Position numbers and translations under genes: made by a program | Shown here: positions 13,337 to 19,210 of the stretch, piece after piece | Layout: every line of letters starts with the position of its first letter | Position numbering within the stretch: the first letter of the stretch is position 1 | Virus record (IMG/VR): IMGVR_UViG_3300042731_001791 | Coordinates: 1-20,099 of that record | From: a virus | DNA: 20,099 bases | Reading direction: 5' to 3' (one strand) | The notes under the pieces: generated by a model | What the model was told of the DNA's origin: nothing | Seen by the model: only the letters and a program-made list of their open reading frames with translations | The model's database searches: none

Positions 13337-13449
13337 AAAAAAACGGAAATTGTGCATATAAACGCACTCCTCCCGTTATCAGTATCCTTTTAATTTTTCA
13401 AGGGTAGCGTTAGTTTTTTGCACACTAACGGTATTATATTCTATTTTCT
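13337..13449 (-). promoter_or_regulatory. structured leader with terminator-like hairpin before protease-capsid operon (leader B)
   Basis: The leader starts near 13449. CGTTAGT (13424-13430) can pair with ACTAACG (13408-13414). Alternatively CCGTTA (13426-13431) can pair with TAACGG (13373-13378). The latter overlaps the left arm of a terminal hairpin at 13344-13375 (CGGGAGGAGTGC, 8-base loop, GCACAATTTCCG), which is followed by seven T at 13337-13343. The pairings are mutually exclusive, as in an attenuator or riboswitch expression platform. No known riboswitch consensus was recognised. Confidence 0.55.
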
Positions 13450-13455
13450 ATTACA

Positions 13456-13484
13456 ATTGTACCTCTTTTTAGTTTTTTTGTCAA
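13456..13484 (-). promoter_or_regulatory. promoter for protease-capsid-tail operon
   Basis: TTGACA (13479-13484), a 17-base spacer and TACAAT (13456-13461) on the minus strand give a near-consensus sigma-70/sigma-A promoter. The -35 box lies directly at the end of the preceding terminator T run. The start should be near 13449. Confidence 0.85.
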
Positions 13485-13511
13485 ATAAAAAAAGCCTATT
13501 AATTAGGCTTT
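13483..13511 (-). terminator. intrinsic terminator of the antirepressor cassette
   Basis: AAAGCCTA, a 5-base loop, and TAGGCTTT, then a T-rich tail of seven T, A and three T. The stop codon TAA of the 136-aa gene lies in the hairpin loop region. Confidence 0.9.
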
Positions 13512-13913
13512 ATTCATATTTAACTTTTTTGTTTTTTCCCAGTTTATATTATTAATTATTTTTACTACAGGAAACAATGTTCCATATAAACATACAGCAA
13601 GATTGCAATAATAATGTTTAAAATCATCCTCTTCCAACACAACTAATTCATTTTCTTTACCACAATTTAAGCAAATATATTTTAATTCATAGCCCAAATT
13701 TTTAATAAAGTCAGCTTTATCTTTTTTAATCGCATGTCTCGCATATGTTTGTTCTGCATCTATATATCCTTCGTCTATGTGTTTTCCTATATTTTTTTCA
13801 TCTATTTGTATAGCGATTGGATAATTCAATTCAAAAGTAATCGGATAACCTTCTTTATATGATTTTATTAGTTGCTCTTTGTAAAAAAAATTAAATCTAT
13901 TATTATTTACCAT
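13503..13913 (-). CDS. small protein with four-cysteine zinc-ribbon-like motif (136 aa)
   Basis: Starts MVNNNRFNFFYKEQLIKS with AAGGAG 9 bases upstream. Cys81, Cys84, Cys103 and Cys108 (CLNC ... CNLAVC) could bind zinc. It ends in the cassette terminator, so it is the last gene of the antirepressor cassette. Possible roles are a nucleic-acid-binding or host-takeover factor, but I do not recognise a family. There is no membrane segment and no enzyme motif. Confidence 0.75.
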   Translation of the reverse strand: MVNNNRFNFFYKEQLIKSYKEGYPITFELNYPIAIQIDEKNIGKHIDEGYIDAEQTYARHAIKKDKADFIKNLGYELKYICLNCGKENELVVLEEDDFKHYYCNLAVCLYGTLFPVVKIINNINWEKTKKLNMNKA

Positions 13914-13925
13914 TTACATCACTCC

Positions 13926-14177
13926 TTATAATTTTTCAAACTTTTCTTTTAACTGTTCAATTAGTATTTTGTTATTTTTTATTTTCCTATCAGCTAATTC
14001 AATAAAATCATTAAAATTTAACTTAACATTCCAGTTACTTCTGCATGTATCTCTTATTTCAACTTTAAACCCCCAATTTTCTTTTATTTCAGGATTTTCT
14101 AAAATTTTGTTTTCTTCCTGTAAATTTTCTATTTCTCTTGCAATTCCATTTGCTAGTTCTAAAGTTTCTAATTTCAT
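13926..14177 (-). CDS. small coiled-coil protein in antirepressor cassette (83 aa)
   Basis: Starts MKLETLELANGIAREIENLQ directly at the antirepressor stop (TAG then ATG). Both ends are predicted helical with heptad-like Leu/Ile spacing (IENLQEENKILENPEI and ILIEQLKEKFEKL). The middle has a Cys-containing beta piece (FKVEIRDTCRSNWNVKL). The Shine-Dalgarno sequence is weak, so translation probably depends on coupling. It might bind the antirepressor or a host protein; unknown. Confidence 0.75.
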   Translation of the reverse strand: MKLETLELANGIAREIENLQEENKILENPEIKENWGFKVEIRDTCRSNWNVKLNFNDFIELADRKIKNNKILIEQLKEKFEKL

Positions 14178-14897
14178 CTAAATCAACTCTCTTTCTTGCA
14201 ATAACTTTCTAATTTTATCTATACCCTTAGTTGTTATCATAGTTTTGGTAAAGTTTTGACTCCACTCACCATATGATTTGTTAACCTCTATAACTTCAAA
14301 TAACATTGAGTCTAAATGTTTCTGATAAGGTGTATTATTTGACATTAATAACTTTTCTTCTCTAAGTAATTTAAATAGTTTATTTCTACCTATTCCAAAG
14401 CTTTTAGCGACTTCTCCTACATCTTGAGAGTTATTCGCTGTAAGCAAAGTTTCATAAGCTTGTACTTTAGGTTTCTGCTCTTTTACAGTTAATTTTAATT
14501 TTTCATTTTCCAAAGCCAGTCTTCCTGCTTCAAGTAATGCTTCTGCATATGTTTGTGGAATAGATGGTGTTAATTCAACTTTTCCTTCTCTAATTAATGT
14601 AGTGATCTGAGTATCACACCATATTTCAAATTCTACAGAAACATATCTAGCTAATGATAATACTAATTTTTCATGAATCCAAGTACCGCCATTTCGACCT
14701 TCTTCTGATTTTATAAACTCCCTATTTTTTAGTGAGTTACTTAAAGCCTTAATATACTTTTTTGTGTTAGGACTTGCTTTCCAATTTTCTAATTTCTTTG
14801 AATCTGTCATAGAGTTTGCTTTCGCATACACTTCTCCACTAATCATTTTAAAAACAATTTCGTTTCCCAAATATTCCTTAACTATTAATTCTTGCAT
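14178..14897 (-). CDS. KilA-N / KilAC phage antirepressor (239 aa)
   Basis: Starts MQELIVKEYLGNEIVFKM after AAAGGAGATACT. Residues about 1-105 carry the KilA-N DNA-binding module (GRNGGTWIHEKLVLSLARYV and EFEIWCDTQI, residues 67-98). After a helical linker, residues 145-239 match the KilAC/Ant C-terminal domain with a helix-turn-helix (DVGEVAKSFGIGRNKLFKLL) and TMITTKGIDKIRKLL. Proteins of this class inactivate lysogeny repressors or act as DNA-binding regulators. It has its own promoter and folded leader and lies among head genes, so it is regulated separately from the virion genes. The target repressor is not in this window. Confidence 0.9.
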   Translation of the reverse strand: MQELIVKEYLGNEIVFKMISGEVYAKANSMTDSKKLENWKASPNTKKYIKALSNSLKNREFIKSEEGRNGGTWIHEKLVLSLARYVSVEFEIWCDTQITTLIREGKVELTPSIPQTYAEALLEAGRLALENEKLKLTVKEQKPKVQAYETLLTANNSQDVGEVAKSFGIGRNKLFKLLREEKLLMSNNTPYQKHLDSMLFEVIEVNKSYGEWSQNFTKTMITTKGIDKIRKLLQERELI

Positions 14898-14914
14898 AGT
14901 ATCTCCTTTGCAAT

Positions 14915-15056
14915 AAAAAAAGCACCATAAATATATGTCGGTTGGTAGCCACTAAAGAATAACCGTCAACTGTTACTCTACCACATATTTATAGTGCATA
15001 ATTGTTAAATTGTATATTGTTGTTAGTTGACGTTAATACCAAGCTACCACACTTGA
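14915..15056 (-). promoter_or_regulatory. structured leader with terminator-like hairpin before antirepressor (leader A)
   Basis: A hairpin at 14922-14997 (16-pair outer stem starting GCACTATAAATATGT with GCACC... on the other arm, then GGTAG/CTACC) ends in seven T at 14915-14921. Upstream, TGGTAGC (15043-15049) pairs perfectly with GCTACCA (14943-14949), and CGTCAACT (15025-15032) with AGTTGACG (14964-14971). These two nested pairings would break up the terminator. A stopped transcript would be about 142 nt, so a free small RNA is an alternative. Confidence 0.6.
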
Positions 15057-15062
15057 TAATAA

Positions 15063-15091
15063 ATTATAGCATATTTCTATATAAATTTCAA
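15063..15091 (-). promoter_or_regulatory. promoter for the antirepressor cassette
   Basis: TTGAAA (15086-15091), 17-base spacer, TATAAT (15063-15068) with an extended -10 (TGC just upstream). The -35 box begins right after the stop of the 58-aa gene. The start should be near 15056. Confidence 0.85.
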
Positions 15092-15268
15092 TCAAAAAGT
15101 TATGTTTTCATCAATTGCATTGTTAAACTCAGTCTGACAACTACACCATCCTTTGTTAGTTAATTCTTGCAATGTGTAGTCTTTTAACGCCTGTATTTCT
15201 GTTTCGTTACAACAGTGTTTCGCTTTTATTATAATTACTTTTTTCAAAGTTTCTTGATCCCAGCACAT
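15092..15268 (-). CDS. 58-aa cysteine-rich small protein
   Basis: ATG at 15268 with AAGGAGG upstream, 15 bases after the stop of the fibre-like gene. The 58 residues run MCWDQETLKKVIIIKAK, then HCCNETE, then LTNKGWCSCQTEF and end ENITF. Cys2, Cys19, Cys20, Cys42 and Cys44 with His18 suggest a small zinc-binding fold (CC ... CSC). The strong ribosome binding site and the tight fit into the operon support it as real despite the small size. No family is recognised. Confidence 0.65.
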   Translation of the reverse strand: MCWDQETLKKVIIIKAKHCCNETEIQALKDYTLQELTNKGWCSCQTEFNNAIDENITF

Positions 15269-16717: not shown

Positions 16718-17070
16718 TATTCTTTCACCTCATTTATCCAGCATTCAAATGTTCCGTCTATTGATGTATCTTTTATTTTAATGGATGTTATCAAGTCTTG
16801 ATGATCGAATACAACATCATTAATAAAATCATCGTAAAAACTTCTATCGTTGATTTTAACTTGAGTTGGAGTTTTTACTAATATCGAGAAAGATAAATAT
16901 ACTCCCTCATTAATTTGACTAGAACTTAAAAACTCTTCTAAAGCAGCTCTAATATTTGTGTCTGTAATTAAATCGTAATCTGTAGATGTCGTTGTAAACT
17001 TAATAACAAAATGATCTCGCTCCCCTTCTACAAATTGAACTGATCCTCGTTTTACATTTTTCAAATACAT
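16717..17070 (-). CDS. hypothetical protein between portal-MuF and fibre-like gene (117 aa)
   Basis: Starts MYLKNVKRGSVQFVEGERDH; the portal stop and this start overlap as TAATG, with GGAGGAGATG before it. It is beta-rich (HFVIKFTTTSTDYDL, LSFSILVKTPTQVKI) and soluble, and its own stop abuts the next start, so the three genes are coupled. It may be an attachment adaptor or chaperone for the fibre-like protein encoded next. No family was recognised. Confidence 0.75.
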   Translation of the reverse strand: MYLKNVKRGSVQFVEGERDHFVIKFTTTSTDYDLITDTNIRAALEEFLSSSQINEGVYLSFSILVKTPTQVKINDRSFYDDFINDVVFDHQDLITSIKIKDTSIDGTFECWINEVKE

Positions 17071-19172
17071 TACATCTCCTCCATTCTATTTGTAATTTTT
17101 TCTAACTGTTTCTTAAATGCTTCTTCATAAGCTGCTGCAAACTTTTCTTCGTAAGGTAACAAAGTATTTTCCATTTTATTTAATTCAGCTGTTTTCATAA
17201 CGATATATTGATTATCAATTAATGTTTTTTTGTTGTCAAATTTTGGTATCATAGTACATCTGCATAATATATTTTCTTCTGCTTCTGCAAAATCTCCTGG
17301 TCTCATAGCTTCGTTACCTAATCCAGATATAAACATTTCATTAATTTTTACTGTTTGACCTTCCATTGTAGAGTGCCACTCTCTAACTCTTTCATCAGAT
17401 GCAGTCAGCCACTGTTTGAATGGAACTACTTCCGATTGACTATAACTTTGTAATTTTGTTTCTTGAAAAGCATTATGAGTTTCCGTTCTGACTATTCTTC
17501 TTAAGTTGTTAGGATTGTTATAATTTGAATACTGGTTATTATTTGCATCAATTATATTCCTAACAATTTCATTAACTCCTAACCCATCTTGTACGCCGCT
17601 TACAATTGTTGTTTTTAATACATTTTTGTAAGTTTCAGACATGTAAGCTATGTTTCTTCCTAAGTTTTCAGATAAAAACTCTATAGCTTCTGGATTTTCA
17701 ACATTAAACATTTCTGATATACCCAAAGCTGCTAATTCACTAGTTCCTAGATTTTGCATAAGATCAACATACTCTTCTACAACATCATCATATAGTTCTT
17801 CATTGCTAAACTCTTCATCTACTATAGAAGATAGTTCAATGCCTAAATCTTTTTTCTTTTTTTGTTCTTTCTCCGCTTTAATAAACTTTTCAAACTCTAA
17901 TTGCTTTTCAGTTGGCACTGTAAAAGTTTCACCTTGCGTATTTTTTACTTGTCCAGTTTCAAGCGACATTAATAGAGTACTAGAACTAATTGCAATCATG
18001 CTTCCATCTTCATACTCTTGTAATTGTTTTCCTGCTAAATCTAACCACCTTTTAGCCGTTGCTATGTGTGGAGCATTTTTATATATTTCTATTAATTGTT
18101 CTTTGTCTTCTGGAATTGCAGCATCAAAACTTAATATGTACTTTTTCCCCGGAAACATTTCCGGCATTACTTGGTAATTGTACATATTAATTATTCTGTT
18201 CAAACTTGGTATAATTTCTTTGTTATAAAATTGAGTAGCTATTATATATGCAGTTGATCTGTTTGACTTATCTATATCTCTATATACGTGATAAGATTTC
18301 TCTAAGTAATCTCTTTCAAATTTTCTTATTTCGTTAACTTGAGCGTCTTTGAAGTTTTCTGTCATTTTAACAGGTTTCAATTCAGATTGAGCGTTTAAGC
18401 CTATAATATCAACAGTGTCTCTTTTTAACCATCCACCAAACCTTGACTTCCAACTTTCTTTAATTCTGTCAGCTTGCGGTTGTGTGCCACCTATTAATTG
18501 AATCAAATAGTCAGGTATAAATTTATTATTAAATAAATTAGCTATTTGTTGTGATGACTTTTCAACTATTGCCATTTCATCTACTTGTGATTGCATTCTT
18601 CCCCAAAACTGGTTAAATGGACGTTCTAAGTCTCTATTACATACAGCTACTATATTATCTTTGTGTACTATCATATTGCTTTGATTGTTGAAAGTGATAT
18701 TGTAATATGGATATCCATCCGTAGGAAATGTATTAATCCAACTAGGATTAATTGCATGTACATATCTAACTTTACCAGTAGTAACTGTAAGCTCTTTTCC
18801 ACGATCCAAAAGTCCTATCATAGCTCCATTCGTCTCATAATATTTTGTCCACAGGATAACTTTCTCTTGAAATGTTACTCCTAACGGATCTCTTGCTGTT
18901 ATAATATTAAGTTGGCTATTCTTGTGATATTCGTCTGTCCTTCCTATCTCTCTAAGATCACCCTTTTGATTTTTCTGTTCCGATAATACAAATATAGTCT
19001 TCTCTAACTCATTTGTAATCTCACGCATAATACTTGACATTGTACTTGATTCTTTTACATATCTATTAATAGCACGTTTATTGGTTTTATCACGTTGATA
19101 ATTTTCTTTTGACCATAACGCACTAGTAGCCTGTGTTTGCTTAGGTTGTTTCTTCCTTTTAATTCCAAACAT
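17070..19172 (-). CDS. portal protein fused to MuF-like head morphogenesis domain (700 aa)
   Basis: The start MFGIKRKKQPKQTQATS at 19172 is preferred: GGAAGGGAG lies 7 bases upstream, whereas the ATG at 19196 has no good site and lies only a few bases from the predicted transcript start. Residues about 1-440 are an HK97-type portal (SWINTFPTDGYPYYNITF, then WGRMQSQVDEMAIVEKSSQQ and DKSNRSTAYIIATQFYNKEI). Residues about 505-645 are a MuF/SPP1 gp7-type domain (RRIVRTETHNAFQETKLQSY, KQWLTASDERVREWH, MRPGDFAEAEENILCRCTMI). The portal forms the dodecamer for DNA entry; MuF is a minor head protein. A 55-residue charged helical tail ends the protein. The fusion is the main oddity. Confidence 0.93.
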   Translation of the reverse strand: MFGIKRKKQPKQTQATSALWSKENYQRDKTNKRAINRYVKESSTMSSIMREITNELEKTIFVLSEQKNQKGDLREIGRTDEYHKNSQLNIITARDPLGVTFQEKVILWTKYYETNGAMIGLLDRGKELTVTTGKVRYVHAINPSWINTFPTDGYPYYNITFNNQSNMIVHKDNIVAVCNRDLERPFNQFWGRMQSQVDEMAIVEKSSQQIANLFNNKFIPDYLIQLIGGTQPQADRIKESWKSRFGGWLKRDTVDIIGLNAQSELKPVKMTENFKDAQVNEIRKFERDYLEKSYHVYRDIDKSNRSTAYIIATQFYNKEIIPSLNRIINMYNYQVMPEMFPGKKYILSFDAAIPEDKEQLIEIYKNAPHIATAKRWLDLAGKQLQEYEDGSMIAISSSTLLMSLETGQVKNTQGETFTVPTEKQLEFEKFIKAEKEQKKKKDLGIELSSIVDEEFSNEELYDDVVEEYVDLMQNLGTSELAALGISEMFNVENPEAIEFLSENLGRNIAYMSETYKNVLKTTIVSGVQDGLGVNEIVRNIIDANNNQYSNYNNPNNLRRIVRTETHNAFQETKLQSYSQSEVVPFKQWLTASDERVREWHSTMEGQTVKINEMFISGLGNEAMRPGDFAEAEENILCRCTMIPKFDNKKTLIDNQYIVMKTAELNKMENTLLPYEEKFAAAYEEAFKKQLEKITNRMEEM

Positions 19173-19210
19173 TAATTTTCTCCCTTCCAAAAACATTATT
19201 TTCCACTATA

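Follow-up and report, generated by a model that had tools for sequence, protein, structure and literature searches.

The KilA-N/ANT (KilAC) antirepressor-like gene carried by a 20,099-nucleotide stretch of viral DNA (IMG/VR record IMGVR_UViG_3300042731_001791; this whole stretch is called the window below) is preceded by a leader that probably functions as a cis-acting attenuator, with two upstream segments complementary to the apical and internal loops of a large terminator-like hairpin. The recurrence of this layout, together with matched mutations in its paired segments, before similar regulators in Enterobacteriaceae prophages and phage HK97 looks like a widespread RNA control of phage regulator genes that is undescribed in the open literature searched. 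In many phages the decision between lysis and lysogeny is thrown by antirepressors; KilA-N and Rha genes are widespread, frequently as lone insertions within late operons, and we know of no control for them. A covarying fold before antirepressors in about a quarter of the sampled Enterobacteriaceae genomes and in HK97 offers a concrete, testable mechanism, and extends the few known cases (C4 of P1/P7, IsrK of Gifsy and sar of P22) towards a general rule in which RNA holds phage antirepressors.

Architecture of the leader upstream of the KilA-N/ANT gene

The leader lies on the minus strand between a small ORF ending at 15093 and the KilA-N/ANT start at 14897 (Table 1). The original prediction had placed a promoter, a 16-pair hairpin with a T7 run and a KilA-N/KilAC gene here, and all of these are present on the minus strand, the promoter itself being plausible rather than proven. 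Its TTGAAA-17-TATAAT elements are near consensus, and it ranks among the best of the promoter-like sites of the window, which number 21 against 21.9 in shuffles. The 16-pair stem pairs 14997-14982 with 14937-14922; the stability of the hairpin is equalled by 1 of 1000 dinucleotide shuffles, and with the T7 run it is, by the criteria applied to sequence, a candidate intrinsic (Rho-independent) terminator. That such a hairpin could block read-through arriving from the portal operon, as had also been proposed, is reasonable. The fold of the entire leader is only modestly better than that of shuffles (z -1.74). The leader additionally contains an 8-codon ATG frame lacking a clear Shine-Dalgarno sequence, which was compared with the orf45 of IsrK.

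Table 1. Positions of the leader elements, antirepressor cassette and related units (window coordinates unless another record or locus is named)
Feature	Position	Strand	Description
Promoter-like site of the leader	15063..15091	-	TTGAAA-17-TATAAT, TG before -10; 11/12 consensus matches
5' hairpin	15039..15056	-	TCAAGT-GTGGTA-GCTTGG; P' displayed in loop
P'	15043..15049	-	TGGTAGC; complementary to P
Q'	15025..15032	-	CGTCAACT; complementary to Q
Terminator hairpin	14922..14997	-	16-pair stem, 8-pair apical stem, 8-nt apical loop; -25.1 kcal/mol
Q	14964..14971	-	AGTTGACG; complete 8-nt apical loop of terminator hairpin
P	14943..14949	-	GCTACCA; within 3' internal loop of hairpin
T7 run of terminator	14915..14921	-	TTTTTTT
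Shine-Dalgarno-like site	14903..14909	-	AAAGGAG; from sequence
KilA-N + ANT (KilAC) antirepressor-like gene	14178..14897	-	239 aa; Pfam and PHROGs
Cassette gene 2	13926..14177	-	83 aa; no family found
Cassette gene 3	13503..13913	-	136 aa; no family found
Simple terminator closing the cassette	13491..13511	-
Leader B promoter-like site	13456..13484	-	TTGACA-17-TACAAT
Leader B terminator hairpin and T7	13337..13377	-	ahead of protease/capsid genes
Gene X	IMGVR_UViG_3300035141_000014 ~37120-37215	+	TATAAT-type promoter, one strong hairpin, terminator
GCTACC/GGTAGC copies in leaders A (window leader), B and gene X	15043, 14949, 13408; L032 2197

Long-range pairings between the leader and the hairpin loops

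Two nested perfect pairings had been reported for this leader, and both are confirmed, P':P with 7 bases and Q':Q with 8. Two nested Watson-Crick pairings as strong as these between the leader and the hairpin interior arise in about 1 in 3000 upstream shuffles (stem excluded), such pairings occur in 282 of 20000 shuffles (1.4%) under a laxer count across the whole hairpin, and the complement of the apical loop Q appears upstream in 61 of 50000 shuffles, all of these being p-values for pairings that the original prediction had already picked out. The 1 in 3000 figure comes from a Watson-Crick two-stem score; a lax chain score that allows G-U pairs and short stems has little power.

The further claim that the pairings and the terminator share a CTACC strand and are mutually exclusive does not survive, as 0 nt are shared with either the 16-pair stem or the apical stem. 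The leader lacks the antiterminator strand, shared with a terminator stem, of attenuators that switch between exclusive alternative hairpins. Judged from the positions of the paired segments, the conflict between the pairings and the terminator is topological only, and the predicted fold is a pseudoknotted or kissing terminator. By energy, the nested pairings (-24.8) are possible while the last terminator arm has yet to be transcribed, and in the full-length RNA the greater stability belongs to the terminator fold (-31.0); standard folding cannot hold both simultaneously because together they constitute a pseudoknot.

The sole close relative among 2.9 million viral contigs of IMG/VR is the 50-kb contig IMGVR_UViG_3300035141_000014, and as it is 100% identical over the compared regions, covariation in the window leader itself cannot be measured. 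Searches with the capsid, protease, terminase and portal proteins returned no relatives other than the identical contig or distant proteins. BLAST of the window leader against phages and plasmids gave nothing above chance and no plasmid copies, and a tRNA-like element was looked for and not found.

Terminator-type leaders before other antirepressor genes

A scan with a KilA-N/ANT alignment gave 18 other loci. Of these, L053, L059 and L060 were inspected, being the ones in which a strong hairpin and a T-rich run lie no more than ~40 nt from the start codon. The leader of the AntA + ANT gene at L059 is a near copy of the window layout in unrelated letters (p 0.0007), with the order promoter, P' TGTCTATG, Q' AAGAGTAAT, a 16-17-pair stem, then a U-run and a Shine-Dalgarno sequence; its 8-nt apical loop lies inside Q, and P is immediately 5' of the 3' arm. 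The Rha + ANT gene at L053 has a partial version of the layout, in which the 5' hairpin loop GTGGTAGT matches the terminator loop ACTACCAC (p 0.008) over 9 bp that include the same GTGGTAG as the window. L060 displays two nested pairings (p 0.006, for a stretch picked after inspection) but a poor U-run. In a control set from phage contigs, made up of 97 large hairpins each followed by a U-run, the median p was 0.44 and L059 alone fell below 0.01. The U-run versions found are few, and leaders of this kind are missing from most ANT genes of Bacillota and from most AntA relatives.

Two further antirepressor-type loci carry hairpins in comparable positions. An AntA relative (L174, near 1468) has a 20-pair hairpin and T6 directly before its start codon, with GGTAAC/GTTACC complementarity upstream (p 0.14). 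In Pseudomonas phage D3 (L103 1372-1489) the KilA-N gene orf11 is inserted among head genes; it is preceded by a terminator-like hairpin, ACGCAGC..GCTGCGT-TTCTATT, and CGCTCATC within the loop of this hairpin matches GATGAGCG at the ribosome site.

A covarying leader family in Enterobacteriaceae prophages

A conserved leader lies directly before the KilA-N start codon in the lambdoid phages HK97 (gp73), KP12 and SPN3UB and in Enterobacteriaceae prophages. Its elements follow the order small hairpin with P', Q', and large hairpin, the latter with Q near the apex and P in a 3' bulge; the base of the large hairpin includes or abuts the ribosome site, mostly without a U-run. When the complementarity of each leader's own segments was compared with that of swapped ones, in 19 and in 17 non-duplicate leaders, Q':Q and P':P were each equalled in 0 of 20000 permutations. 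Shifted-window controls were mostly null, and the two non-null ones have part of the Q' window or of the hairpin arms in them. The paired letters differ from phage to phage, e.g. CTCAGAA/TTCTGAG, CATCGAA/TTCGATG, CACCGAA/TTCGGTG and CCAAAGAG/CTCTTTGG for Q':Q, and TCTCAC/GTGAGA, CCGCAATG/CATTGCGG and TTCGCGT/ACGCGAA for P':P. In an alignment with Q':Q treated as a pseudoknot (A3), 85% of the cells are paired and both sides have changed in 79 cells versus 29 when shuffled; the covariation is 0.521 versus 0.234 for shuffled and at most 0.201 for slid versions. Only six columns of the enterobacterial alignment are invariant.

A covariance model built without the long-range pairings (R1) has matches in 26 of 99 Enterobacteriaceae genomes. 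For the 17 leaders new to the alignment both pairings again gave 0 of 20000, one shifted control (upstream x P) giving 182 of 20000, and the newly found leaders precede KilA-N, Rha and other antirepressor-like genes. Taken as a group, the enterobacterial loci L101-L156 represent a family of covarying leader RNAs, found ahead of KilA-N, Rha and ANT-type genes, that has no Rfam entry. RefSeq annotates no RNA feature beneath 26 E. coli matches.

The window leader has the layout of this family, an antirepressor gene being preceded by nested P':P and Q':Q pairings whose order is unchanged, and the two share a 5' hairpin with P', followed by Q', a large hairpin, a ribosome site and an antirepressor-like gene. 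The enterobacterial leaders differ in that the U-run is mostly missing, the hairpin is located at the ribosome site, and the sequences are not alignable with the window. Since R1 gives no match over the window leader, whether filters are applied or not, common descent of the two is not established; the likeness is architectural, and convergence could account for it. It is about an even call whether the window leader is a member of a broad, so far undescribed phage class in which two upstream segments clamp a terminator or ribosome-site hairpin at its apical loop and its internal loop, and which controls antirepressor-type regulators (KilA-N, Rha, AntA and ANT) across unrelated phages in transcriptional (U-run) and translational versions. 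By analogy with C4 in P1 and P7, the letters of the pairings may set which prophages cross-regulate.

Comparison with known RNA regulators

That the leader fits no recognized riboswitch class, as had been stated at the outset, agrees with the Rfam searches: the window stretch has no real match at gathering or lax thresholds (E up to 10), riboswitches included. At gathering thresholds the relatives gave no match, and none was recovered for the leaders in L005 or L006. The C4 model (RF01695) is not among the window matches up to E 10, has none in HK97, KP12 and SPN3UB, and has none over the enterobacterial leaders of other genomes, its matches falling elsewhere in the same genomes. Likewise, the isrK model (RF01394) does not match the window or the enterobacterial leaders and matches elsewhere in the same genomes. 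The idea that the enterobacterial leaders are C4 or isrK RNAs is hence rejected, as the model matches never overlie them. In several genomes (G351, G445, G239, G338, G356, G366 and G327) isrK matches are regularly situated ~20-70 nt upstream of C4 matches on the same strand, which suggests that isrK and C4 may be parts of one leader.

The sar RNA, encoded antisense, provides RNA control of the P22 ant gene. It resembles the window in that an antirepressor is placed under RNA control, and differs in being antisense, the parts of the window leader all being on one strand. Classical attenuators and terminator riboswitches share with the window the succession of promoter, leader, alternative pairing, intrinsic terminator and gene; in the window, unlike in these, the upstream pairings would bind the loops of the terminator and leave its stem unused. 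IsrK of Salmonella Gifsy-1 illustrates that a terminated leader RNA combined with long-range pairing can control an antirepressor (PMC4825925). As predicted for the window leader, it has its own promoter, an intrinsic terminator directly before the antirepressor gene with read-through into that gene, and a long-range alternative pairing, in IsrK between the sRNA part and downstream RNA (PMC4825925). As far as the letters of the window go, the IsrK-type feature found there is an own promoter and terminator directly before the antirepressor gene. IsrK acts on translation of orf45 via a ~30-nt helix (PMC4825925), whereas in the window leader two short segments would pair with the apical loop and the internal loop of the terminator, and there is no sequence or model match to IsrK. 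The C4 antisense RNA of phages P1 and P7 recognizes two short target sites, a' and b', via two loops (PMC5320573). It is comparable to the window as the leader RNA of an antirepressor operon with two short downstream target sites, and differs in being a processed RNA of ~77 nt with three stem-loops (PMC5320573). The C4-type feature seen in the window is the complementarity of two short segments, P' and Q', to two downstream sites.

Proposed mechanism and alternative explanations

The proposal of an attenuator-like, regulated leader before an antirepressor is supported by the recurrence of the layout in unrelated phages, the enterobacterial covariation and the lack of such complementarity in 96 of 97 controls; the part that is not supported is the mutual exclusion. 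In the mechanism that we favor, transcription from the leader's own promoter would yield the 5' hairpin with P' in its loop, then single-stranded Q', and then the large intrinsic terminator hairpin. P':P and Q':Q would form during synthesis of this hairpin to give a kissing or pseudoknotted fold, and this fold would set how frequently RNA polymerase continues beyond the T7 run to transcribe the antirepressor gene. As the stems are conserved along with the long-range pairings and have no nucleotide in common with them, a composite fold in which the upstream segments clamp the loops is the likeliest one, and the window leader would, by analogy, fold as its enterobacterial cousins do. Since the hairpin is terminator-like in both the window and L059, the predicted output there is read-through that reaches the antirepressor; an equivalent fold in the enterobacterial cousins would lie over the ribosome site and act on translation, the output expected of a hairpin that covers this site. 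Antirepressor expression is presumably low by default, and some infection cue or a passing polymerase might release the hold of the leader.

A possible but unlikely alternative is that the promoter-leader-terminator unit yields a stable ~140-nt small RNA whose target in trans would be the read-through transcript of the unit itself or the leader of another phage, with the antirepressor expressed via read-through. The leader indeed has its own promoter and a strong terminator, its looped P' and single-stranded Q' are typical antisense seeds, and both the layout before an antirepressor in IsrK (PMC4825925) and the setting of two loops against two target sites in C4 (PMC5320573) offer precedents. 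However, the terminated RNA would hold both P'/Q' and P/Q and would thus satisfy itself, no processing signal was found, and the Rfam models of the two precedents match neither the window nor the enterobacterial leaders.

We consider it improbable that the hairpin is an ordinary terminator, insulating the cassette from the portal operon or ending that operon, with the complementarity arising by chance. A moron-like cassette with its own promoter and closing terminator would accommodate such a terminator, and the T6-7ATT tail is common to the other terminators of the phage. It is disfavored by the rarity of two nested pairings (~1 in 3000), one of them with exactly the apical loop, by the 96 of 97 control U-run hairpins that are without them, and by the return of the layout before other antirepressors.

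A ligand-binding riboswitch is very improbable: there is a terminator with a structured region upstream, but neither the window (lax thresholds) nor the relatives (gathering) match Rfam, the enterobacterial P and Q letters vary freely provided that pairing persists, and six invariant columns leave little space for a conserved ligand pocket. We give similarly slight credence to the GGTAGC and GTCAAC repeats being DNA operators for a repressor, with the RNA pairing a by-product of inverted operators; GGTAGC/GCTACC does occur 5 times in 50 kb with 4 copies in three promoter-leader units, yet the paired enterobacterial letters differ per phage while complementarity is kept, as needed by RNA pairing and not by a shared operator.

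Genomic context and related promoter-leader units

The KilA-N/ANT gene is the first of a three-gene cassette that sits amid head genes, with the portal-MuF gene upstream and the protease and capsid genes downstream, and in its sequence organization the cassette appears to have the anatomy of a moron. The original prediction would have tied the leader to prophage induction, and this link is uncertain. The 50-kb relative was searched for tyrosine and serine integrases and none was found, although it encodes a Cro/CI-type HTH gene (L031 11920-12135). A second antirepressor-like gene of the same phage, Rha + ANT (L032 3282-3929, minus strand), is without an evident leader of the window kind.

A second promoter-leader-terminator unit in the window, leader B, spans 13484-13318 on the minus strand. 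Its terminator is complementary to its own upstream region (p 0.003), and these pairings would compete with the inner hairpin. Leaders A (the window leader) and B have in common a 17-nt tail, TTTTTTTATTGCAAAGG, of which a longer version is rare in genomes. The tail was considered as a mobile module and rejected, as most of its other matches fall in terminator tails or in coding sequence and have no leader. Gene X (L032 2120-2215, plus strand) is a free-standing, small-RNA-like unit amid opposite-strand genes. Its terminator, GTAGGTAGTC..GGCTACCTA-TTTTTT-ATTGCAAA, shares GGCTACC and the tail with leader A. Small-RNA pairing among leaders A, B and gene X was not convincingly above shuffles and was set aside. 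The hexamer GCTACC/GGTAGC has 5 copies in the 50-kb phage, 4 of them within these three units. Elsewhere in the window, portal and Mu-F-like domains are fused in one 708-aa protein (17070-19196, minus strand), and a tandem-repeat open frame at the window edge (14-400) is encoded on the strand opposite to the structural genes.
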